DNA from: an uncultured Pelagibacteraceae bacterium
Lineage (GTDB): Bacteria > Pseudomonadota > Alphaproteobacteria > Pelagibacterales > Pelagibacteraceae
DNA: 49,385 nt
Reading direction: 5' to 3'
Assembly (NCBI GenBank): GCA_902537895.1
Contig: CACBCU010000006.1
Span: 1 to 49,385 of the forward strand
Position 1 is the stretch's first letter, and every line of letters begins with the position of its first letter. Position numbers and translations under genes: made by a program. Of this stretch, positions 295 through 12,283 are shown piece by piece. The notes beneath the pieces were generated by a model that did no database searches, was not told the DNA's origin, and worked only from the letters and a program-made list of their open reading frames with translations.

Positions 295-1644
295 TTATTT
301 CCCATCAACAACGACTATAGTTAAATCATCTTTTTGTATACGACCTGATCTAATAATATCTTCAACTATTTTATTTAGTCTCTCATGGTTTGGTACTTGC
401 TGATATTTTTTTATATAATTTTTAAAACCTTCAGACTCTAACATGTCTCCCTTAGAATTTTTAATTTCAGTAATACCATCAGTAAAAATATACATTGAAC
501 TATTTTTAAAATTAATTTTTGTTTCTTTGAATTTATATTTCGGTGCAATGCCTAACGGTGGACCAGCTTCTTCGAAATTAGAAAAGTTTCCATCATCAGA
601 ATAAATTATCGGTGGTTCGTGTCCTGCATTTGCTAAAGTTAATTCTTTTTTGTTACTATCATAAATTCCTATTAACATTGTAACAAACATTCCTCTTGAA
701 GTGGTCTCACATATTTCTGAATTTAAAATATCTAAAAGTTCTGCTGCCGAATAATTTGTTTTACTTAAACATCTATAAAGACTTGACGCCTTTGACATTA
801 GTAACGAAGATTTAATTCCTTTTCCTGATACATCTGCAACGCCAAAACCATAAACTCCTTCAGAAAGTTTTGCAAAATTATAAAAATCTCCTGAAACAAC
901 TTTCGCTGGAATATTTATACCAGCAATTGGGAAATTTTCTTTTTGATTTTTGGAGAGTAAAGTTTTTTGTATCTCACCAACTATTTCAATTTCTTTTTGC
1001 ATTCTGTTCTTATCAATTAAATCTTTTGCCATCTTTGCGTTTCTTATCGCTAAAGCTGCTGGACCAGATAAAGTTTCCAAAAGTTTTCTATCGTTTTCTT
1101 CAAAAAGTTTGTTACTTGTTTTTTTATTCAAACAATGAATAACACCAATACATTCCTCTGATACGATCAATGGTGAACATAGCACTGAGTATGTCGTAAA
1201 ATTTGTTTTGTTATCTAAATCAAAATAAAATTCAGCAATCTCTCTTATATCTTTTCTTACATCGCCAACTCTAATACATTTTTTCATTACCGCTGCTTTT
1301 CCCATCACACCTTGTGTAATAGGAATTTCAAAATCTTCTAAATAAGCTTGATGTTTTGATGCAATACATTGGAAGCTTTGACTTTTATCATCTATTAAAA
1401 AGATGTTTGCTGCTTGTGCATTTATTCTTTTGATTATTAATTCCAACGAATTGTTTAACGTTTCTTTTAGGTCAAGAGACATTGCAAACTCTTGATTCAT
1501 TTTTGTAATTAGCTCTAAATCTTTGCTACTGGTATCTTCTTTTACAGGGATTTCTTTTTTTCTAGAGCCAAAAAACATATTATTTATAAATTGATATTCA
1601 TTTAATTTTTGATATTTTTGAAAGTGATGGATATCATTATTCAT
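295..1644 (-). CDS. GAF-domain PP2C/SpoIIE-type serine phosphatase (RsbU-like)
   Basis: This 449-residue protein has a GAF sensor domain at about residues 55-202 and a SpoIIE/RsbU-type PP2C phosphatase domain at about 235-449. The metal-binding signatures are clear: SGD at 251-253, DVSGKG at 271-276, NAGH at 339-342, TDG at 388-390 and DD at 439-440. Such enzymes usually dephosphorylate an anti-sigma-factor antagonist (STAS protein) or another phosphoserine protein in partner-switching pathways, with the GAF domain sensing a small ligand. No STAS or HPK-like kinase partner is visible in the window. It has no signal peptide, so it is likely cytoplasmic. It is divergent from pilD and faces the pilus cluster, so a role in pilus or surface control is possible but is only inference. 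Confidence 0.9.
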   Translation of the reverse strand: MNNDIHHFQKYQKLNEYQFINNMFFGSRKKEIPVKEDTSSKDLELITKMNQEFAMSLDLKETLNNSLELIIKRINAQAANIFLIDDKSQSFQCIASKHQAYLEDFEIPITQGVMGKAAVMKKCIRVGDVRKDIREIAEFYFDLDNKTNFTTYSVLCSPLIVSEECIGVIHCLNKKTSNKLFEENDRKLLETLSGPAALAIRNAKMAKDLIDKNRMQKEIEIVGEIQKTLLSKNQKENFPIAGINIPAKVVSGDFYNFAKLSEGVYGFGVADVSGKGIKSSLLMSKASSLYRCLSKTNYSAAELLDILNSEICETTSRGMFVTMLIGIYDSNKKELTLANAGHEPPIIYSDDGNFSNFEEAGPPLGIAPKYKFKETKINFKNSSMYIFTDGITEIKNSKGDMLESEGFKNYIKKYQQVPNHERLNKIVEDIIRSGRIQKDDLTIVVVDGK

Positions 1645-1743: not shown

Positions 1744-2508
1744 GTGCTCTATATTATAGCATTTATCTTTGGAAGTATATGGGGGAGTTTTAGTAACGTT
1801 TGCATTCACAGAATTCCCAAAAACATGGGTATTATTAAAGATCGATCGATTTGTCCAAACTGCCAAAAAATGATTAAATGGTATGACAACATTCCATTAT
1901 TATCTTTCATTATTCTAAAAGCTCAATGTAGAAACTGTTCAGCAGATATTAGTTGGAATTATTTTGTAGTTGAATTGATTGCAGCTATCAGTTTTGTCAT
2001 AATATTTTATTTTTTTGGGATCTCTTTAACAACACTTCTTTTTTTTATCTTAAGTATTTGTTTTATTGTAATTTTTTTTATAGATCTCAAACATTTCATA
2101 ATTCCAAATGAAATAACATACCCATTAATGGTGATTGGTTTTCTAAAATCATTCGACCCAAATTTAAATACTAACTTATTTCCAAATTTTCTTAACTCTT
2201 TAATAGGTGGACTGTTTGGTTTTGCTATCATTTGGTTAATAATTTTTATTTATAAAAAGTTGAGAAATAAGGAAGGTATGGGTTTGGGAGATGCTAAATT
2301 ACTTTCGGCAATGGGTTTTTGGTTCGGCTGGGTTTCAATTCCGTTTATAATTTTTTTTTCATCAGCGATAGCTCTATTAAGTGTAATTCCTGACTTAATT
2401 AAAAATAAAAAAAAACTTTCCTCCCAAATACCTTTTGGACCACATTTAATTATTGGAAATATTATTTTTATTACTTTTGTTGATCAAATTAAATTATTTT
2501 TGATCTAG
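1744..2508 (+). CDS. pilD: Prepilin peptidase / N-methyltransferase (type IV leader peptidase)
   Basis: This 254-residue polytopic membrane enzyme cleaves the leader of type IV prepilins after Gly and N-methylates the new N-terminus. The zinc-binding cysteine pairs of the methyltransferase part are present (C37/C40 and C62/C65). Both aspartates of the aspartic peptidase are visible, D114 in FFIDLKH and D183 in the GMGLGD motif. The start is a GTG that gives the usual hydrophobic N-terminus with GSF-N-V-I-R-P features. It converges on pilY1, sharing the four bases CTAG across both stop codons. Its substrates are presumably the four minor pilins encoded just beyond pilY1. Confidence 0.95.
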   Translation: MLYIIAFIFGSIWGSFSNVCIHRIPKNMGIIKDRSICPNCQKMIKWYDNIPLLSFIILKAQCRNCSADISWNYFVVELIAAISFVIIFYFFGISLTTLLFFILSICFIVIFFIDLKHFIIPNEITYPLMVIGFLKSFDPNLNTNLFPNFLNSLIGGLFGFAIIWLIIFIYKKLRNKEGMGLGDAKLLSAMGFWFGWVSIPFIIFFSSAIALLSVIPDLIKNKKKLSSQIPFGPHLIIGNIIFITFVDQIKLFLI

Positions 2509-5500
2509 AACCCTGTGTCTCTCCATCCACCTTTGTTAGATAAAATTTCCCCAGGCACTGATAGAATTGAGTATAAAGTTTCTGCATTCTCGCTAGGCCC
2601 AGCAACGTTTGCAAATAACTTATCTCCGAAGATAACTAGCTCAGATAAAACCCCTTCTCTTACGAAAGTACAAGTCTGAACCGAAGCTTCTCTGCCTTTA
2701 ACAAGTTTGTGTGAATTGTCAGTTCCACATTCATCATCGTGTACACAAATAAATGCATTACCAATATTACATACATTTTGTCCCGCAGGTGGTTCGTACA
2801 CAGGAAAATAAACTTGTCCTTTAAATAATGTCGGTGGCGCAGATGCTTTTCTAAAACCAGAGTTTGGCACAGTGTCCTGGTCCTGAGTTCCAGCAGTTGT
2901 CCCAAGATTAGTAGTTGGAAGAGTTATAGGATCTAGATGATACACCCAAGCATCTTCTGCATCTGGACAAGCATCACCTGTATCGTCTAAAGAGACATCT
3001 GAACAATGTGTAGCATCATCAATAGATTTTGCTGCATCAGCGTCAGCATGCGCAGCAGAGACGAAGATGTCAGAGCTTTGTAGTGGCACCTGAGAGGGCA
3101 CGAAAAAAGGATACTCTCTATCTCTTATACCATATAAAATATTATCCATGCCTATAGTTTTGTCTCCAAGCGCATTAAAGTCTCCTGTCCCACCAAATAA
3201 CCAGAAATCTTTTGTTGTATTACCTATTCCAGCGTCCATTCCAAAAAATGAGTACCTTCTATTAGTAGTATTCGCGTTTAATCTAAATAATGTTTTCTGA
3301 TTGAAAAGAGCTGCACCATTTGCAGTGGAGTCTGTTAAATTTATTTTTGTAATTTTTCCTTCTCTGTCATTTATATAAACCATTGCTCCTCGCCAAGGAA
3401 TACCAAAGGCTGTATCAGGAGTGATAACTACTGGTGTAGTGGGAACAGCATTATTGATTTCACTACCGTTTGCTGTTGTAATTCCACTATTTCCAAAAGC
3501 AAATCCTGTAGGATGAGTGTCAACAATAGTTATTGGACCACCATTAGTCGACGAACCATAAAGTCTTCCAGGATTAGCGGTATCAGATAAATCAACCAAA
3601 AATAAAGCTGATCCAGTACATGCATTTGCAGTAGACATTCCGCCGCCCATAATTGCTACATATTTATCGTTTAAAGGTTCATCTTGCTCACCTTCAATGT
3701 CGGAAGGGAGCCTCACTATTCTTGGTGTTGACCAAGTTTCTCCTAATTTACTATAATCAAATTGCGCATCGGCAATCGTTGTTGCCGTACATGATGTCTG
3801 GATAAAAATATTGTCAGATTGCGATGTAGTGACATTTCCTGCAGCATCAACTGTTGATGAGTCCCCTCGGTCAATAGTTTTGCTTGTATTAAAAGTAATT
3901 ACAAGTTCGTTATTTTGCATTCTTGCAGAGGTAAAATCAATCTTTTCGAATGTGCCATCAACTAGCTCAGTAACATTTAGTAAGGCTCTATCAATATCTT
4001 GACCTTCTGCTGTGTTAAGCTGAATATCCCTGAAGGTATAAGTTCTACCCGTATAACAGGAATTTGTTCCATCCACTATAAAGTTATCAATATTCCCATC
4101 AGCTGGATCTGGTCCTTGGCAACTTGAACGATTATCTCGATTTGTAGTTGGAGCTGGTATCTGTATATCTCCAACTTGTGGAGCAGTATCAACTGTAAAC
4201 GTACCATCTGCAATTGCATCATCTATTGTATCTTGTGTCCAAAGAGTGTCCTCTCCATCATCTTGACGGGCCTGATTGTAATTATTAAGTGCTATTTGTC
4301 CCTCCTCTGACTGAGTTAAAGAAGCCTGACCTGATGCGTACTCATAACTAGTTAAGTCTCCATCATGGTCTGCGATGTGGACAACGTTGTTTATGTAATC
4401 ATTATATACTGTGAACATGTGAAGAGGACCTGCTGCTGGCTCAACAATTGGATTTGTAACGTCGAGGACAGTAAAACCGGATCCACCTCTTCCAAATGGA
4501 ACAAACAATATAGTATGCCAACTTGGGCTTTCCTCGATTGTTCCCAGAGGTGTTAAACCTTTTATAAACACATCGTGCACAACTGGTGAGCCATCGACAC
4601 CAAATATTGCATTACTTCCTCCCTTGCTTCCATCAACAGAGCCATTGAGAGATTCATTAATTATATTTGGTAGCTTACCAATTAATATTGGTGGGAGAAA
4701 TGCCCACTCTTCATCACCAGTCTCAGCGTTAAAAGCATGTATCAACCCACTGTTTGAACCAGCATAAATGACGTTTCTTCTATTTTGTTGTGCAGTCTTA
4801 AAGGCTTGATAATTATTAATAGACCTGAAATAAGCCTCTTCATTATTTGAAGAGAATTCAACATTACCGTCTGGTGCTCCAACTTCTATTAACTGAGAAT
4901 GATATATATCACCGAGAACATGATCCCTTAATTCTGTTGTTCCTGTATCGTTTGCCCCAGTTGTACAATCTCCGTCGTAATCAAAAAAATCCTGGCCAGC
5001 TAAGAAGCGGAAAAGACCTTTCACTTCATCATCTGTAGTGTCATCTCCACCACACCTTGAAGTCGAAGTATGATAATTAGTTATTTGAAAACCTAACATC
5101 TCCATATCAGGTTCAAGAAGAAGTGCGTTGTCATCATTAAGATTATCCCAATTTCCAATATAGCCACCACCTTCCACATCACTTATTACCGTCCATAGGT
5201 TTCTGCTATCATCAGTACTATAATTTCCAGCACTATTAGAAGATTGATTTCGAACTTGTATAGATGCATCCCAATTTCCAGGATAATCTATTTCATGCTC
5301 GACTGTACCATCAGCATTTAAGTGTTTTCTTAAAATAGTTCCTTGCCATTCACCAAATTGTTCATAAGAAAATTGCGCTTGATACAGTGAACCTCCTTTT
5401 TCAATAGTTGCCGTAATTGAGGGTGCAGTAAATGACAAACGTTCAGCTAAAATTTGTCTAATTTTTTGTTGAAGTTGAGTTGTGAGCTCTTCGGGAGTTC

Positions 5501-7451
5501 TTGCAATAATTGTGGGCTCACAGTCTGGTTGCCCAGCTGCAGCGCATGATCCAACTACCGCTAATTCATCAAATGATTGCATTCCCGCTGGATTTATTCC
5601 ATCTCCATATGCAACGAATAAAGTTTTAACACTGGGGGTCATGTTCCTTAAAGCCTCTAGTCTTGCAGCAGTTCTGCCTCTGTTTCTACTTGATGGTAAT
5701 CCAGTTTTCTTTTGCATTCCATCGCCAATAACAATCACATAATTTAGCTGACAGTCAGAATTAGGATCATGAGGACTAACACCCTCACCACCAGTAAAAT
5801 AATCATGAGCAATTTGAGAAAAAGCTTCTGCGTCTGTACCAAAGGCTGTTCTTATTCTACGTACCTCTGGTATAGCTAAAGCGGCACCCTCCGGTCCAAC
5901 TCCAACGTTTAAACAAGAATTAGTCGTACAAATTCTACTTCTAGTACCGGTCCATCCTCCATAATAATTACAAGGATTATTGTTGTTATGACACCAGCTA
6001 CCACCCCTTCCTCTAGGCCTTCCCCGATCAGGTCTTACACCTGTACCAAAATTTCGTTCACCAGCGTTCCAATGACCAAAACCAAAATTTGCCCCAGAGG
6101 TTAATGTATTGTCAGATAAAATCGCGATGATTGCCCGCTTTGCTCCTTCCAGTCTAGAAAACTGCTGTCCACCGTATTGAACTTGCCACGCGGTGTCTTG
6201 TGTTCCTTGAACAAATCCATTAGTGAGCAGCTCATCCACAAAGCCATCATGAGTAAATATAATTCTATTGTTAGATATATTTAGTCCACCTAGAGCTTGA
6301 ACTATACGTATATCGGTAGAAGCTAAATCACCTGCGGCGATTGCATCTCCATTATCATCAACGTTTGCGAGTGTGCTTGCTGTTCCTGCGAAAACAGTTG
6401 CAAAACAACTTCCGTCATTTTGCCATGAAATACGTTGAATTATACGTTCACGGTTACCCCCAACAACCATTTCATCATCATTGACTAAATCAAACACAGT
6501 AGTAAATGTCATTTCCAGTCCCGCTCGTCTAACTACTCCATCGCAAAACCTAGTCCTTTGACTTCTATCAGTTACAACTCGAGTATTTCCTCGTGCCTCT
6601 GTTGTGTATCCATGAACATCTCCATCATCAGAAATATACATCATAGTTGAATCGCTATTTAATCGTAATCTCGATCCATCTCTAAGTCTGTCCCATATAT
6701 TGCCTCTCCGAGCTCGATTTGCAACACGCGCGCACTCTCCTGCTGCCAGATTACATGAGAACATGAAACCATTTCTACTGTCTCTACCATAAACAGCAAC
6801 GATAGTTTGACCAGCAGCATTCTGACTAATATCAAATCCTCTAATTTGAAAACCTCTTCTGCCACCCCCTGGAACTAAAGCAAGTCTGCATCTAAAATTT
6901 TCATCTAAAGCAAAAACTGCAGTCATGTTATTGTTTTGTTGATATTGACCCACAAATAAAAGGTTCTCTCCATTAATGTTGGTTCGGCCGACAGTGACAT
7001 TTCTCAAATAACGCACACCATGATATGATCGATTTGTAGAAATATTTGTATTCATTCCTACCCTGTTATTACGATTGATTGACCAGTCACAACTTCGGTC
7101 AGTACCAGCTCCTGCAACCCATTTTCTTACTTCATAAGAAGATCCGTTGTCTCTAAGCCCTGTCATATTAGCTCTTTCCCCAGCAGCATCGATAAGATAT
7201 AGACCTCCACCACGTCTGCTGGCAGCTGTTAAGTATCTTTCTCCAGTGTCAGGATTGATCGTTACAGATGTGATGTTAGGCAGACCATCACCTATATTAT
7301 TATCCATACTGGCAGAGCTATCTAATAAAATTAGAATATTCGCCCTAACATCACCTTCTCCAGATCCTGGTGGAAGGGGTTTTGCATAAGTAAATTGATT
7401 AAAATTTAAAGTAAAAATCAATAAAAATAATATTTTATATAAGCTTTTCAT
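2505..7451 (-). CDS. pilY1: PilY1-type pilus tip adhesin with inserted domain in its VWA region
   Basis: This 1648-residue secreted protein has a signal peptide (residues 1-23, cleavage near TYA-K). A von Willebrand A MIDAS motif, DSSASM, lies at 44-49. The rest of the VWA fold appears only much later (helix RLEGAKRAII from 433, strand NYVIVIGDG near 571). Between them is an insert of roughly 370 residues with propeller-like strands. The C-terminal half matches the PilC/PilY1 beta-propeller: VIYAGSNSGLIHAFNAETG near 892, a DHDGD calcium-type loop near 1029, and KYVAIMGGGMS. PilY1 sits at the type IV pilus tip with the minor pilins and acts in adhesion, pilus extension and surface sensing. It is the last gene of the pilT-fimT-pilVWX operon, 15 bp after the 173-residue gene. 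Base composition is higher in G+C than in neighbouring housekeeping genes. Confidence 0.92.
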   Translation of the reverse strand: MKSLYKILFLLIFTLNFNQFTYAKPLPPGSGEGDVRANILILLDSSASMDNNIGDGLPNITSVTINPDTGERYLTAASRRGGGLYLIDAAGERANMTGLRDNGSSYEVRKWVAGAGTDRSCDWSINRNNRVGMNTNISTNRSYHGVRYLRNVTVGRTNINGENLLFVGQYQQNNNMTAVFALDENFRCRLALVPGGGRRGFQIRGFDISQNAAGQTIVAVYGRDSRNGFMFSCNLAAGECARVANRARRGNIWDRLRDGSRLRLNSDSTMMYISDDGDVHGYTTEARGNTRVVTDRSQRTRFCDGVVRRAGLEMTFTTVFDLVNDDEMVVGGNRERIIQRISWQNDGSCFATVFAGTASTLANVDDNGDAIAAGDLASTDIRIVQALGGLNISNNRIIFTHDGFVDELLTNGFVQGTQDTAWQVQYGGQQFSRLEGAKRAIIAILSDNTLTSGANFGFGHWNAGERNFGTGVRPDRGRPRGRGGSWCHNNNNPCNYYGGWTGTRSRICTTNSCLNVGVGPEGAALAIPEVRRIRTAFGTDAEAFSQIAHDYFTGGEGVSPHDPNSDCQLNYVIVIGDGMQKKTGLPSSRNRGRTAARLEALRNMTPSVKTLFVAYGDGINPAGMQSFDELAVVGSCAAAGQPDCEPTIIARTPEELTTQLQQKIRQILAERLSFTAPSITATIEKGGSLYQAQFSYEQFGEWQGTILRKHLNADGTVEHEIDYPGNWDASIQVRNQSSNSAGNYSTDDSRNLWTVISDVEGGGYIGNWDNLNDDNALLLEPDMEMLGFQITNYHTSTSRCGGDDTTDDEVKGLFRFLAGQDFFDYDGDCTTGANDTGTTELRDHVLGDIYHSQLIEVGAPDGNVEFSSNNEEAYFRSINNYQAFKTAQQNRRNVIYAGSNSGLIHAFNAETGDEEWAFLPPILIGKLPNIINESLNGSVDGSKGGSNAIFGVDGSPVVHDVFIKGLTPLGTIEESPSWHTILFVPFGRGGSGFTVLDVTNPIVEPAAGPLHMFTVYNDYINNVVHIADHDGDLTSYEYASGQASLTQSEEGQIALNNYNQARQDDGEDTLWTQDTIDDAIADGTFTVDTAPQVGDIQIPAPTTNRDNRSSCQGPDPADGNIDNFIVDGTNSCYTGRTYTFRDIQLNTAEGQDIDRALLNVTELVDGTFEKIDFTSARMQNNELVITFNTSKTIDRGDSSTVDAAGNVTTSQSDNIFIQTSCTATTIADAQFDYSKLGETWSTPRIVRLPSDIEGEQDEPLNDKYVAIMGGGMSTANACTGSALFLVDLSDTANPGRLYGSSTNGGPITIVDTHPTGFAFGNSGITTANGSEINNAVPTTPVVITPDTAFGIPWRGAMVYINDREGKITKINLTDSTANGAALFNQKTLFRLNANTTNRRYSFFGMDAGIGNTTKDFWLFGGTGDFNALGDKTIGMDNILYGIRDREYPFFVPSQVPLQSSDIFVSAAHADADAAKSIDDATHCSDVSLDDTGDACPDAEDAWVYHLDPITLPTTNLGTTAGTQDQDTVPNSGFRKASAPPTLFKGQVYFPVYEPPAGQNVCNIGNAFICVHDDECGTDNSHKLVKGREASVQTCTFVREGVLSELVIFGDKLFANVAGPSENAETLYSILSVPGEILSNKGGWRDTGF

Positions 7452-7466
7452 AATTTTAAATTAATA

Positions 7467-7988
7467 CTACATCATAATTTCTATTACATCAGGTCCAAAC
7501 ATAAATTCCTTTAGTTCAGGTTTGGAAATGGTTAATGTTTCATAATTACCTTTAGTATCACTAACTCGACCATAGATTACATCCTCACCAAAAGACTCGA
7601 GTGGTATGCCACCAACCCAATCTTCATCTAAAACTTCTTGCGTTGTAAATCCCAAAGTACTATTAGCAAAATTAAAAATTTTATTAGTACTCGCTTCGCC
7701 AAATCCCCCAAAAATTTCAGTTCCGATAATTTTACCCTCTCTAACGTATACTCTAATAGTTGAGTTTTCTAGTTCAGTGTTCTCACAAAAATCAAAGCTA
7801 TCATACTCATTTACAAATGTTAAAGGCTCAGCGGGATCAACTGTTGGATCATTTAAAAGATCGTATTTTTCAGTTAAAGTTGTCATTGGGGTTCCTATTT
7901 TTTCTTTCAAAAATTCACATGCGAAACTAAAATTTATCGTCCCGATAAATAAAACGAATGATGTGAAGATAACAAAGATTCTTTTCAT
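7467..7988 (-). CDS. Unrecognised secreted protein inside the pilus operon (between pilX and pilY1)
   Basis: This encodes 173 residues from the ATG complementary to 7986-7988. A TTG 18 bp upstream would extend it, but the ATG gives the better signal peptide, with a Lys-Arg start, a hydrophobic core and SFA before Cys. The mature part is acidic, with two cysteines near its N-terminal half (C after SFA, and in DFCEN) that could form a disulfide, several short beta-like stretches, and a C-terminal GPDVIEIMM. I cannot assign it to a family. It is in the position where other pilus clusters keep small accessory genes near pilY1. An export chaperone, a minor tip subunit or a PilY1 partner is possible, but nothing in the sequence decides. 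Confidence 0.75.
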   Translation of the reverse strand: MKRIFVIFTSFVLFIGTINFSFACEFLKEKIGTPMTTLTEKYDLLNDPTVDPAEPLTFVNEYDSFDFCENTELENSTIRVYVREGKIIGTEIFGGFGEASTNKIFNFANSTLGFTTQEVLDEDWVGGIPLESFGEDVIYGRVSDTKGNYETLTISKPELKEFMFGPDVIEIMM

Positions 7989-8059
7989 TAATAAAATATT
8001 ACCCAATTTTTTGAAAAAATAAAATTATACATTTTGTTAATCGACTGACCATTTTGAGT

Positions 8060-8920
8060 TTAGCTTGACAAAATTATTAAGCTTTCTAGAGGAATTAATA
8101 TATCGGGATCAGCAAATTCATCATCCGCAGCATCCCGTGGCATTAAATACCCGCAACCATAAATCCTATAAGCTGTTCCTTGCCTTTGCGTATTAGTTGC
8201 TGTTTTTTTAATACTAGTTCCAGTTCCTTTGAAAATTGCCGAACCTGCATTGACTGAAAAAAATTCATATCGGAATCTCCGTAAATACTCTAGCTCCTCT
8301 GCTGCCTCTTCATTAGTTAATCCAACAGTAATTCCTTCTGTTAAAATTGGCGCGATTACATCTCCAAAATTTAAATTTACAAAATGATCCGTGACTAATA
8401 TGGTATCTCTTTCTCTAAAGTCTCCTATTTGCGGGTTACCAAGGTCGGCCTTTTGTTCCTCCGTTAGCGCGTCTAATTCTTGCTTTGAATAAAAGAAATC
8501 TTGTTCCCTAATTAAATTTCTGAAACTGTTGAAACACGGGCTCAATGTCGGTGTGACTAAATTTCTTGGAATGTCTCTTCCCTCGGTATGCCGAACAAAA
8601 CTATCAGGAGTGTATCCTGCATCTGTAAATGTAGCTACATAATTGTTATGAGCAGTTTGCTCTGTCACTTCTGTAAATGTTTGACCAGAAAAATCTGAAA
8701 GTTGCATCCACGGCCCAAGCATTCGATTTGAAATTCTTTTTTCTGCTTCCATTAAAGCATGTTCTGCCACATAAAATGTTTGTTGATATTGATCACTAGT
8801 ATTATTGCTCTGATGATCTCCAGAAGAGATGACTATAAGACTTCCTCCCATCAAAGACATCACCAATAATAAGACGAGTGATAAAACTAATGTAAATCCA
8901 TTTTGATTTTCTTTTTTCAT
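8060..8920 (-). CDS. pilX: PilX-type minor pilin
   Basis: A 286-residue protein begins with a short basic leader (MKKENQNG) and a long hydrophobic helix starting FTLVLSLVLLLVMSLMG, as in PilX N-terminal domains. The sequence after the helix (SSGDHQSNNTSDQ... AEHALMEAEKRI) also follows the PilX pattern of an A-E-x-A-L helix. Predicted cleavage is after Gly8. The +5 position of the mature pilin is Leu rather than the Glu found in its three neighbours. It overlaps pilW by one base (TAATG), which implies translational coupling. It presumably works in the priming complex with PilV, PilW, the FimT-like pilin and PilY1. Confidence 0.88.
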   Translation of the reverse strand: MKKENQNGFTLVLSLVLLLVMSLMGGSLIVISSGDHQSNNTSDQYQQTFYVAEHALMEAEKRISNRMLGPWMQLSDFSGQTFTEVTEQTAHNNYVATFTDAGYTPDSFVRHTEGRDIPRNLVTPTLSPCFNSFRNLIREQDFFYSKQELDALTEEQKADLGNPQIGDFRERDTILVTDHFVNLNFGDVIAPILTEGITVGLTNEEAAEELEYLRRFRYEFFSVNAGSAIFKGTGTSIKKTATNTQRQGTAYRIYGCGYLMPRDAADDEFADPDILIPLESLIILSS

Positions 8921-9864
8921 TAATATATATTTTTCTCCACAACATTTCTTGTATACACAGTCACCACAACGCTTTCTCTTAAATTCCTGTCAGTGTATGA
9001 TTTGATATTTCTTGTAAAACCACTTATTTGTCTTGGGTTGCCTTGCCCTCTTTCAAATTTAAAAAAGGGTTTTTCAGACACAAATGCAATTCTCATATCT
9101 ATTGCTCTTACTTTATATAGATTCCTTCTTGCATCTTCTGTTCTGGGACTTGGATAGGGGCTTAAAACTCTTCCATTCTTATCAAGTGGAATAAATTCCA
9201 TATCTTCAACATAGTCTTTTATCAACTCTCTGTCATAACATGTAGGACAATTGGGGTTCCAATCTCCAGTTGTCTGATTTAAACTTTGTTCCCAAGCTAT
9301 TTTAGATTTAAAAACAGCGTACCTCTGATTTGTTGGGTTTTGTTCTGTGCCATCAGTTTCAATGTCTGCAAAATAAGTTACTCTATATCTTTTATAAGGT
9401 TGATTTTCATCCAAATGATCAAAATCGTCATAAACAAAATGAATTTTATCACAACAAGCATCTACTTGGCCTTGAATAAGATTATTTTTAGTAGGACGAG
9501 TATACCCGTCTGGGTCTGTGATATCGTGACCCAAAGTATCTTTTTCAATTATAATTGGATCATGACTTTCCCAAATTCTAGTTCCTCCAGTTAAGAATTG
9601 TAAATTTGATTGTGATGGGAAACCTAAATTATTAGTTCCTAAATAATATTTATAACCTGCCATGCGTGCATCTCGAATTAGTAGTTCAATTAAATCTCTT
9701 GAAGATCGACTGACTTTGGCTTTCTCTAAAACTTGATTGTAAGTTGTATTGACAATTGAATAAGTTGTATAGATAGCTGCCATCATAATTGATGAGACTA
9801 TTATTCCAATTAGAATTTCAATTAATGTTAGTCCAGTATTAGGTTTGAACTTTTCTTTAATCAT
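8920..9864 (-). CDS. pilW: PilW-type minor pilin
   Basis: This 314-residue type IV pilin-like protein has an 11-residue leader ending in Gly, then LTLIEILIGIIVSSIMMAA with the canonical Glu at mature position 5. The length, the R-D-L-I-E segment and the RDARMAGYK segment after the helix are typical of PilW. The C-terminal domain contains a CCDK pair and a CPTC pair. It shares TAATG junctions with both pilV upstream and pilX downstream. Its role would be in the minor-pilin tip complex that initiates assembly and presents PilY1. Confidence 0.88.
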   Translation of the reverse strand: MIKEKFKPNTGLTLIEILIGIIVSSIMMAAIYTTYSIVNTTYNQVLEKAKVSRSSRDLIELLIRDARMAGYKYYLGTNNLGFPSQSNLQFLTGGTRIWESHDPIIIEKDTLGHDITDPDGYTRPTKNNLIQGQVDACCDKIHFVYDDFDHLDENQPYKRYRVTYFADIETDGTEQNPTNQRYAVFKSKIAWEQSLNQTTGDWNPNCPTCYDRELIKDYVEDMEFIPLDKNGRVLSPYPSPRTEDARRNLYKVRAIDMRIAFVSEKPFFKFERGQGNPRQISGFTRNIKSYTDRNLRESVVVTVYTRNVVEKNIY

Positions 9865-10571
9865 TATGAGCCACCACCTTGATTACCCATTGGAGTTTGC
9901 ACACCAGGTAGATCTTTTTTAAGTCTATAATCCGCTTGAAAATATATGTATTTTCTTTTTTTTCCATTATTTAATTTCATCTCAACTCTTCCGATGTGCA
10001 TAGGTTCATCTGTTACGTTTGCTGAATTGAAAGTACAACTATCCCATCGACAAATATCAAACACTTCCAGCCTTTTATCTTCGAAAGTGCTTGTGCATTT
10101 TAAAAATCTATTTTCACTAATTATAGTATTCCACTTATTTTCTTTGTTTTGAAGAGCATCTACTTCTTGATCATTATAAACATTACTTGCTGGTTGACCA
10201 TTATTACCGGTACAGTTTGCAGCAGCGTCTGAATCCCATGCAGTCTCATTAAGACGCTCAACAAATGTATATAAAAGCCCGTTCTGATCTGTAAAATTAC
10301 TATCAGTATGAGTGGCACGCCCTTGGCTATCATATGATATGTTTTCATCATCCGAGCTAACCCCCCAGAAAGAGTCTCTACTTCCAAGCACATCTTCCAC
10401 CATCATTTCAGTTAGAAAATTTGCTTTAGTTCTATCTCCAGAATTATCAATTGATTGAACTGAGAAATTAGTCATTTGTAAAATAGCGATAAATCCAATG
10501 CCAACAATTACAGTTGAAACAATTGCTTCTAAAATAGAAAGTCCAGAAACTTTACTAATCTTTTTCATCAT
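9864..10571 (-). CDS. pilV: PilV-type minor pilin
   Basis: From the ATG complementary to 10569-10571 this encodes 235 residues: a 10-residue leader MMKKISKVSG, then LSILEAIVSTVIVGIGF with Glu at mature position 5, as in PilV. A further ATG at 10593-10595 would add eight residues and overlap the preceding gene. I prefer the inner start because it lies one base after that gene's stop and gives a leader of usual length. Several cysteines occur in the C-terminal domain. The position between the FimT-like gene and pilW fits the conserved minor-pilin order. Confidence 0.85.
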   Translation of the reverse strand: MMKKISKVSGLSILEAIVSTVIVGIGFIAILQMTNFSVQSIDNSGDRTKANFLTEMMVEDVLGSRDSFWGVSSDDENISYDSQGRATHTDSNFTDQNGLLYTFVERLNETAWDSDAAANCTGNNGQPASNVYNDQEVDALQNKENKWNTIISENRFLKCTSTFEDKRLEVFDICRWDSCTFNSANVTDEPMHIGRVEMKLNNGKKRKYIYFQADYRLKKDLPGVQTPMGNQGGGS

Positions 10572-10572
10572 T

Positions 10573-11295
10573 CTATTGGTTGACCCATCCAGCATTATTA
10601 TTCCATCTCGCTAAAACCACATTACCAAACCTTGACCATTCTATTGAATATAAATACCTATGTTCCACTTCTGGGTTTCCCGTGTCGTTAACTTCACAAG
10701 TATTTCGGTTAATACCTATATCACATATGAAAAGTGCACTATCTGGAACACCCCCTGCTGCCAATTGTCCAGCTCCGCTAAACCATTGGTCGTTTTTGCC
10801 AAAACAAATTGCGCCTGTAGCTTCTGAGTCTCCCGATCCCCTAAAAGTCGTTGCTAAATTTTCTACTTGGATTTCTCTTACCTCAATTAAATCATCTCTT
10901 CCACCATCAGCATCCCAATAATCAGGATCTTCAATATTGCATCTTCCTGCAGCATTTGTCCTCCAGGCACTAGCACGATCATTTAAAAAATTTGCAAGAG
11001 TCTCTGGTTTCATACCTTTAGATGTTATATTTAAAACTCGATCACTATCTTCATCTTGAGTTTCAGCAATCTCATCTACTCGTACTTGAACGAATGCATA
11101 TTGCCCTCTTTGAACTTGAGCTACTATTCCCTCAATCAAAGTTTTGGTTGCAATTGCAAAACTTTTAACTTCTCTATCTTTTCGCCATTTACTAATTTCA
11201 GGGTATCCTAATGCTGAAACTATTCCAACAATGAGCAGCACTACAATTAATTCAAGTATGTTAAAACCTTTAGTTTTCTCGTCCAGCACTCGCAT
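10573..11295 (-). CDS. FimT/FimU (GspH-like) minor pilin
   Basis: A 240-residue pilin-like protein has a 10-residue leader (MRVLDEKTKG) and the mature start FNILELIVVLLIVGIVSALGYPEI, with Glu at +5 and the Pro-containing helix end seen in FimT, FimU and GspH. It is the first minor pilin of the operon, the place FimU/FimT occupies elsewhere. Its start lies 26 bp inside pilT, which indicates coupling. I cannot separate FimT from FimU or from a PilE-like subunit by reading alone. A major pilin gene is not evident in the window. Confidence 0.8.
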   Translation of the reverse strand: MRVLDEKTKGFNILELIVVLLIVGIVSALGYPEISKWRKDREVKSFAIATKTLIEGIVAQVQRGQYAFVQVRVDEIAETQDEDSDRVLNITSKGMKPETLANFLNDRASAWRTNAAGRCNIEDPDYWDADGGRDDLIEVREIQVENLATTFRGSGDSEATGAICFGKNDQWFSGAGQLAAGGVPDSALFICDIGINRNTCEVNDTGNPEVEHRYLYSIEWSRFGNVVLARWNNNAGWVNQ

Positions 11296-12283
11296 CTATT
11301 TTTCCTGCTTTCACTAGTTCTTCTAATGATTTGGTCATAGTGATCATACCATCTTTCACAGCAGTTTGCATTATGCTCGGAATTTGATGAATTTTAGATT
11401 CCCTTATCAAGTTTTGAATTGGAGGTGTACACTTCATCACTTCAAAAGCACCGCAACGGCCTTGACCATCTTTAGTTTTTAGAAGTCTTTGAGTTACTAC
11501 CATTTTCAAAGAAGTAGAAATTTGCGCTCTGATTTGTGCTTGTTGTTCAGGTGGGAACACGTCAATAATTCTGTTTATGGTACTAGGCGCACCACTTGTG
11601 TGCAATGTTCCAAATACCAAATGACCAGTTTCTGCAGCAGTTAATGCTAGTGAAACAGTTTCTAAATCTCTCATCTCTCCAACTAGAATTACATCTGGAT
11701 CTTCTCGAAGAGCTGCTTTCAAAGCTGTTGCGAATGTTTGAGTTTGCTTTCCTACTTCTCTATGTGAAACAATACTCTTTAAATCTTTATGAATAAATTC
11801 AACTGGGTCTTCTACAGTAATAATATTTGACGTTCTAGTCTTATTAATTTCATTTACTATCGCAGCAAGAGTTGTTGATTTTCCTGAGCCGGTAGGACCA
11901 GTTACTAAAACTAAACCCTTATGCATATCAACAATATCATAGAGCACCTGCGGTAAATCAAATTGGTCCATTGATGGTATTACACTTTCAACTCTTCTTA
12001 AAACTGCTGCCGGGCCTTGAATAGTTTTATAAAAGTTAGCTCTAAATCTTAAACCACTCAAAGTCACTGATGAGTCGAGTTCATGAGTTTCATTAAATCT
12101 TTTTAATTCAACTTCATTACAATTTGTCGACAATAAATCCTGAAGATCTTGGGCTTTAACCATTACATCAGGTATCTTATGAATTTCACCAGTTTGTCTG
12201 TATGCGAGTGGCCAGCCGGTTCTTATATGAAAGTCAGAAATTTTTTTATTGTTTTTTGCAAGATCTTCTAATTTTTCAAACAT
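11270..12283 (-). CDS. pilT: Type IV pilus retraction ATPase PilT
   Basis: This 337-residue secretion ATPase belongs to the PilT branch. It has Walker A GPTGSGKST at 129-137, an Asp box around ITVEDPVEF (156-163), a Walker B region VILVGEMRD (198-206) and the His box HLVFGTLHT at 221-229. The GEMRD form is typical of PilT. It powers depolymerisation of pilin and hence twitching or DNA uptake. It heads the minor-pilin operon, which is unusual because pilT is often unlinked from fimU-pilVWXY1. The extension ATPase PilB, PilC and the PilMNOPQ alignment complex are not in this window. Confidence 0.95.
   Translation of the reverse strand: MFEKLEDLAKNNKKISDFHIRTGWPLAYRQTGEIHKIPDVMVKAQDLQDLLSTNCNEVELKRFNETHELDSSVTLSGLRFRANFYKTIQGPAAVLRRVESVIPSMDQFDLPQVLYDIVDMHKGLVLVTGPTGSGKSTTLAAIVNEINKTRTSNIITVEDPVEFIHKDLKSIVSHREVGKQTQTFATALKAALREDPDVILVGEMRDLETVSLALTAAETGHLVFGTLHTSGAPSTINRIIDVFPPEQQAQIRAQISTSLKMVVTQRLLKTKDGQGRCGAFEVMKCTPPIQNLIRESKIHQIPSIMQTAVKDGMITMTKSLEELVKAGKIDASAGREN

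Follow-up and report, generated by a model that had tools for sequence, protein, structure and literature searches.

PilY1 proteins of Pseudomonas aeruginosa and its relatives contain a C-terminal PilY1 domain (PF05567), are encoded in a minor-pilin neighbourhood and have an N-terminal von Willebrand factor A (VWA) domain with a metal ion-dependent adhesion site (MIDAS); for PilY1 N-termini, a survey from 2026 lists vWFA and DUF4114 domains (PMC13190605). A model from cryo-electron tomography of Myxococcus proposes that the C-terminal domain is proximal to the pilus and that the N-terminal VWA domain forms the ultimate tip, in a complex proposed to act in priming, in adhesion and as a cork (PMC7541494). 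A force-sensing role has been reported for the VWA domain of Pseudomonas PilY1 (PMC11891296). Adhesion, twitching and DNA uptake depend on the insertion in Acinetobacter baumannii ComC, a pilus-tip protein of the PilY1 type with lineage-specific insertions in its VWA scaffold (PMC10374093). Streptococcus sanguinis PilB, and RrgA as compared with it, also place a VWA domain with a MIDAS and flanking protruding arms at a pilus tip (PMC8179133). For SAR11, a table row in the literature labels a PilY1 cluster 'All except HIMB114'. Here we describe the PilY1 gene in a 49,385-nucleotide stretch of DNA from an uncultured Pelagibacteraceae bacterium (contig CACBCU010000006.1 of assembly GCA_902537895.1; the whole stretch is called the window). 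Its product is probably a type IVa pilus tip adhesin of Pelagibacteraceae in which the MIDAS loop of the VWA domain has been expanded into a six-bladed NHL-type propeller that serves as a variable recognition head.

The features of this gene and its product are given below, with E-values for matches and with invariance scored across 53 distinct aligned Pelagibacterales PilY1 sequences, the window's included.

2505-7451, minus strand: PilY1 gene, an open reading frame (ORF) for 1648 residues; Pfam T4P_PilY1 matches residues 846-1011 (5e-12) and PDB 3hx6 PilY1 matches at 1.8e-12
7383-7451, minus strand: N-terminal hydrophobic leader, residues 1-23, a probable signal peptide as read from the sequence
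7305-7343, minus strand: VWA strand beta1 and the MIDAS DxSxS, residues 37-49 (D44, S46, S48); strand at model positions 14-21, invariant in 53/53
6168-7289, minus strand: inserted six-bladed NHL-type beta-propeller, residues 55-428, predicted from the model and its strand list, fold comparison and profile links
5412-6167, minus strand: remaining VWA domain, alpha1 to alpha7, residues 429-680; strands and helices alternate in the model, VWA Pfam matches in relatives
5835-5837, minus strand: MIDAS Thr, T539 (GTDA loop), T in 53/53; role from knowledge of VWA domains
5721-5723, minus strand: second Asp of the MIDAS, D577 (VIGDG), D in 53/53; role from knowledge of VWA domains
4419-4916, minus strand: recognised start of the C-terminal PilY1 propeller, residues 846-1011 (Pfam PF05567, profile positions 1-162 of 411)

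Judged by its sequence matches, the ORF at 2505-7451 is PilY1. The PF05567 score was 45.9 bits against a cut-off of 28.1, with a match to profile positions 1-162 of 411 only, and the sequence of the Pseudomonas PilY1 crystal structure (3hx6) was matched more strongly with the family profile (1.5e-14) than from the window protein itself. Related loci numbered 37 and were mostly from Pelagibacteraceae single-cell genomes and metagenome-assembled genomes, the closest being 96% identical in its best segment. One of the 37 records carries the label Nitrosomonadales.

A sequence-only reading of this DNA had proposed that a propeller-like domain of about 370 residues, at 6161-7286 (PilY1 residues 56-431), is inserted between the MIDAS motif and the rest of the VWA fold. 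The alignment bore this out, since all 53 sequences have 291-467 residues in place of window residues 50-430 and all match a profile of the insert (E up to 3.1e-18), which was built from 36 of them; the insertion point is thus the same in PilY1 homologues of the order. In the window protein the insert is approximately 374 residues long, from the MIDAS (D44) to the resumption of the VWA domain at about residue 429. D44, S46, S48, T539 and D577 are invariant in 53/53, and we take the last two to be MIDAS residues. An AlphaFold2 run on residues 24-835 (an 812-residue query, with 26 sequences) placed the insert after beta1, followed by alpha1, beta2 and the later elements up to alpha7, with the first VWA helix after the insert at residue 433. 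Because the MIDAS residues are invariant and the model resumes at alpha1 and beta2 past the insert, we place the insert in the beta1-alpha1 loop, a loop on the ligand-binding face of known VWA domains. The VWA domain is complete around the insert and uses the residue-44 MIDAS, as the earlier reading had supposed.

The alternating beta/alpha topology of this VWA domain, split after beta1, is indicated by the model with moderate confidence. Three results count against it: the VWA remainder was less surely modelled than the insert, with blocks at 46-87 in predicted local distance difference test (pLDDT) scores, Pfam VWA had no match in the window PilY1 itself, and the best PDB hit to a profile of the VWA part was at 0.17, which is unusable. 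Among same-order relatives, Pfam VWA matched L161 (9.2e-8), L162 (2.2e-7) and L163 (2e-5), and it matched 4 of the 25 VWA parts scanned at E up to 1 (best 0.00032). In L161-L163 the Pfam VWA models match from profile position 13-18 onward and only past the propeller. A second VWA loop, after beta2 (residues ~462-515; window 5907-6068, minus strand), contains a YYxGW motif and is poorly modelled. C508 and C513 in this loop are invariant in 26 sequences, and C487 and C494 are missing from some homologues.

We then considered the fold of the insert. The AlphaFold2 model as a whole had a mean pLDDT of 75.7 and a predicted template modelling score (pTM) of 0.61, and the blocks of the insert were all-beta with pLDDT 76-95. 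From the strand list of the model we read six blades, with borders at about residues 60-99, 143-193, 201-246, 261-292, 319-355 and 387-427, and an extra hairpin region at about residues 105-136. The strands that had led to the proposal of a propeller were found as described: LLFVGQY at 164, TIVAVYG at 216, TMMYISDDG at 269, EMVVGGN at 327 and RIIFTHDG at 396, followed by the second strands AVFALD at 178, FMFSCNL at 229, VHGYTTE at 279 and IIQRISWQ at 337, and these pairs are modelled as beta strands. DSSASM at 44 and RLEGAKRAII at 433 also stand where they had been placed, and NYVIVIGDG, given as near 571, starts at 570. Blade-like structure was therefore predicted correctly, but the list of five blades was incomplete; it omitted the first, directly after the MIDAS, and the family, which was left unnamed, is most likely NHL.

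When the model was compared with known structures using VIA-align, the top match to the insert was the NHL region of SOQ1 (Z score 23.4 over 290 residues at 3.5 Å), followed by NHLRC2 (Z 22.7, 286 residues, 3.8 Å) and TRIM2 (Z 22.4, 255 residues, 2.9 Å). Further matches included TRIM71, Thin and the designed protein Pizza6, with SOD- and phytase-type propellers interspersed, and neighbouring rows of this ranking are to be read as ties. The matches span model residues ~29-405, or about window residues 54-428, and the NHL and Pizza6 structures align over the insert at Z 18 to 23. Foldseek returned a top list of mixed propellers with poor global root-mean-square deviation, as expected for a query of 812 residues. 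The model thus supports a six-bladed, NHL-type propeller fold for the insert.

The relationship to NHL repeats was examined by sequence. Here the results with the window's own clade point the other way: Pfam NHL has no match in the window insert, and a PDB profile search with its close clade (13 sequences) returned no NHL structure and one unrelated match at 0.088. Pfam NHL also has no match in L164-L166, although the insert profile matches all three, and a profile built without the row of L020 missed L020. Since direct NHL matches are absent, the NHL assignment of the window clade and of L164-L166 is based on fold comparison and intermediate sequences. The profile of 36 Pelagibacterales inserts matched Pizza6 (1.5e-6), NHLRC2 (1.7e-6) and PknD (9.4e-6) in the PDB. 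Pfam NHL matched 9 of these 36 inserts at E up to 1 (best 1e-5). It also matched, above cut-off in each case, L163, from the window's genus (7.7e-12), and three members of another family: L161 (1.4e-8), L162 (2.9e-8) and L020 (6.2e-5). L163 aligned with the NHL domain of Drosophila Thin at 1.1e-25. Using hhalign, 13 long-form inserts, the window's first, aligned with 10 NHL-type forms at 96.9% probability (E 1.9e-10, 270 columns). Because the broader profile, the Pfam NHL matches of relatives and the profile-profile alignment connect the two forms, the most likely identity of the window insert is an NHL propeller that has diverged. It resembles the NHL propellers of TRIM71, Thin, NHLRC2, SOQ1 and PknD in having the six-bladed fold across its length and, via relatives, in sequence. 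It differs from them in that the window clade has diverged past direct detection and in that its propeller is nested in a VWA loop. HZS_alpha, for which Pfam gave 0.05-0.06, below its cut-off, was rejected as the identity of the insert. The three PilY1 proteins L164, L165 and L166 are paralogues in one Pelagibacteraceae genome (G068), and the strength of their matches to the propeller profile is very unequal.

To judge how far the insert extends, 40 further PilY1 proteins were fetched and searched with the insert profile (with --max). All six from Pelagibacterales matched, with E at most 5.2e-6. Leave-one-out profiles recovered 5 of the 6 rows tried (the window at 6.1e-86, L009, L012, L017 and L019). 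None of the 34 proteins from outside the order matched (best 0.03) with this profile, which can miss diverged members; because the profile made without L020 misses L020, a Pfam scan of the 34 was added, and Pfam NHL at E up to 0.01 matched none of them in the first 700 residues of each. Among these 34 proteins, L135 and L160 at least have an open N-terminus. Unlike the Pelagibacterales proteins, then, these 34 lack an NHL insert by both profile and Pfam NHL. When L163 was searched directly against 299 genomes of the phylum, no frame among the matches listed had both a propeller and a PilY1 match. Two relatives from the class, of family f25 (G201, G332), are both truncated and allow no judgement on the insert. 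Counting the window's own genome each time, PF05567 was present in 46/147 genomes of the order, 3/289 of the class and 66/249 of the phylum. By these sequence matches, the propeller insert is present in two families of Pelagibacterales. In a limited literature search we found no description of an NHL propeller in PilY1, and a dataset of 68 PilY1 architectures (PMC8179133) may list one.

The corresponding stretch holds other material in other PilY1 proteins. VWA-type Pfam models matched some of the 34, and a YNP-type motif occurs in 15 of them, in 13 past a readable MIDAS. The MIDAS-to-DG distance, read by regular expression, is 122 residues in L149, a compact VWA domain, and 273-350 residues in L140, L144, L146, L148, L151, L155 and L158. 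The values for L141 (169), L147 (727) and L169 (735) were disregarded, since they may be doubtful matches or reflect an insert of a different kind. Other likely binding modules were seen among the 34: a PA14 domain in L130 and a legume-type (L-type) lectin domain in one other. In ComC the insertion forms no propeller but a finger rich in Tyr, at residues 166-256 of one variant (PMC10374093). PilB differs further, being a pilin and not a PilY1, with small arms of which one is a four-stranded sheet (PMC8179133).

The insert diverges faster than the rest of the protein. Mean identity to the window across 33 loci was 0.33 for the insert and 0.60 for both the VWA domain and the C-terminal part, and the positions conserved in 90% or more of the 53 sequences numbered 10 of 374 in the insert (C188, G222, N234, Y272, Y329, G356, R396, W422, G427 and G428), 52 of 252 in the VWA domain and 166 of 808 in the C-terminus. 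The median ratio of nonsynonymous to synonymous divergence (dN/dS) over 83 non-independent pairs was 0.23 for the insert, 0.08 for the VWA domain and 0.15 for the C-terminus; the insert exceeded the VWA domain in 81 of the 83 pairs and the C-terminus in 75. The propeller is thus, by sequence comparison, the least conserved region of PilY1, which fits a variable recognition head, and for this reason it is probably the part that contacts ligand. A caution applies to this argument: nearly all of the pairs listed have an insert dN/dS below 1, so the rapid change of the insert may reflect relaxed constraint rather than selection, and pairwise dN/dS showed no positive selection on the insert.

The same numbers could be read to mean that the propeller is a passive spacer, or a plug that fills the secretin mouth or shields the MIDAS, and varies because little constrains it. 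So few conserved positions, and a dN/dS that is raised yet mostly below 1, would agree with this, as would the proposal that the Myxococcus VWA domain plugs the pilus machine (PMC7541494). We consider this unlikely. Each of the 59 Pelagibacterales PilY1 proteins examined at the N-terminus matches the insert profile, despite genomes of only 0.5-1.5 Mb, and the insertion in the same domain of Acinetobacter ComC is required for the three pilus functions named above. A different use of the fold would be catalysis, with an enzyme of the SOD, phytase, lactonase or DFPase type shown on the pilus. Fold comparison matched propellers of all four types at Z 19-22, but the ten conserved positions include no common acidic or histidine cluster for an active site. 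The absence of conserved polar clusters weakens this idea, and we regard it as highly improbable.

Synonymous divergence is uneven along the gene. Between the insert and the VWA flank it was 0.13 versus 0.53 for the pair L047-L048, and between the insert and its flank 0.07 versus 0.50 for L012-L014 and 0.51 versus 0.25 for L015-L018. This mismatch points to recombination within pilY1, as far as sequence divergence can indicate it. The signs of recombination also count in favour of another reading, a pilus for DNA uptake that uses the NHL propeller as a DNA-binding tip. Some animal NHL domains bind RNA, and NHL domains solved in complex with RNA rank among the closest fold matches (TRIM71 bound to a long non-coding RNA, Lin41, Brat). 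Some inserts are basic, up to +17. However, only 40% of the 53 sequences have an insert of positive net charge, that of the window insert being +1, and the ComEC family was found in 0/121 genomes of the genus, including 0/19 of those at least 90% complete, in a search that was positive in 10/14 control genomes. A classical role in DNA uptake is weakened by the lack of ComEC and the near-neutral insert of the window, and we think such a tip distinctly doubtful.

The SAR11 propeller is most likely, by analogy with other PilY1 proteins, a recognition head on a metal-dependent VWA mount. In this arrangement the C-terminal domain of PilY1 would dock on the minor pilins with the N-terminal part directed outward, as in other PilY1, and the NHL propeller would lie next to the MIDAS at the distal end of the pilus, as a variable head for ligand recognition. 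The conserved VWA domain would be the metal-dependent mount of the propeller and possibly a force sensor, and PilT would power retraction once contact has been made. The propeller would then plausibly add a putative second binding surface beside the C-terminal PilY1 propeller. Integrin alpha subunits with an I domain also combine a VWA domain and a propeller, one nested in the other. There the nesting is inverse: the propeller has seven blades, and the VWA domain interrupts it between blades 2 and 3 (PMC12422189). A bolder version, which we put forward tentatively and think unlikely, is that the propeller face and the VWA metal site form one composite tip binding site, gated by force or metal, an inside-out counterpart of integrin alpha. 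The propeller would be diversified and exchanged by recombination between SAR11 lineages, changing what the pilus recognizes or escaping pilus-binding phages.

In every Pelagibacterales PilY1 with an N-terminus examined, the probable outermost module is a fast-evolving propeller. The targets of SAR11 pili, whether particles, other cells or phages, could for that reason be tested directly with a single soluble domain. The inserted propeller also adds a whole-domain case to the view of the PilY1 VWA domain as a scaffold for exchanged recognition inserts.

The genes around pilY1 are consistent with a pilus tip. Minor-pilin-like genes (FimU/GspH-, PilV-, PilW- and PilX-like) lie directly upstream of it, followed by PilT:

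8060-8920, minus strand: PilX-like minor pilin gene (PilX_N 3.9e-5, 24.0 bits against a cut-off of 25.5)
8920-9864, minus strand: PilW-like minor pilin gene, named from its position only (N_methyl prepilin motif 7.6e-5, above cut-off)
9864-10595, minus strand: PilV-like minor pilin gene (TIGR02523 1.7e-7, below the curated cut-off; no Pfam match)
10573-11295, minus strand: FimU/GspH-like minor pilin gene (TIGR02532 prepilin motif 3.7e-5, above cut-off; a weak GspH match below cut-off; no Pfam match)
11270-12283, minus strand: gene for a retraction ATPase of the PilT/PilU family (TIGR01420 1.7e-124)
7467-8006, minus strand: ORF of 179 residues with a hydrophobic N-terminus, between the pilX-like gene and pilY1; homologue in 37/37 related loci
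1744-2508, plus strand: prepilin peptidase (A24) gene, converging on pilY1
295-1644, minus strand: GAF-SpoIIE phosphatase gene, beyond the prepilin peptidase; 89-99% identical in 14 related loci, among the matches listed

The 179-residue ORF has no Pfam, NCBIfam or PHROG family match, and its homologue stands just upstream of pilY1 in 14 loci, among the matches listed. It is a candidate new part of the SAR11 pilus tip. The window's own assembly, 1.0 Mb in 40 contigs, contains a PilQ-family match that is below its cut-off.

The C-terminal half of PilY1 gave less structural information. AlphaFold2 on residues 695-1648 reached a pLDDT of 60.6 with no Foldseek match at 0.001, and this model is too poor for structural use. 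An EF-hand-like calcium motif in the C-terminal propeller is common, though not universal, among PilY1 proteins. One regular expression of the D-x-[DN]-x-[DNS] type, a pattern search and not a structural one, found no such motif in the C-terminal propeller of the window protein. Residues 681-1648 (window 2508-5411, minus strand) are strongly acidic, with a net charge of -21 in the linker and -59 in the C-terminal part, next to a near-neutral inserted propeller and VWA domain.

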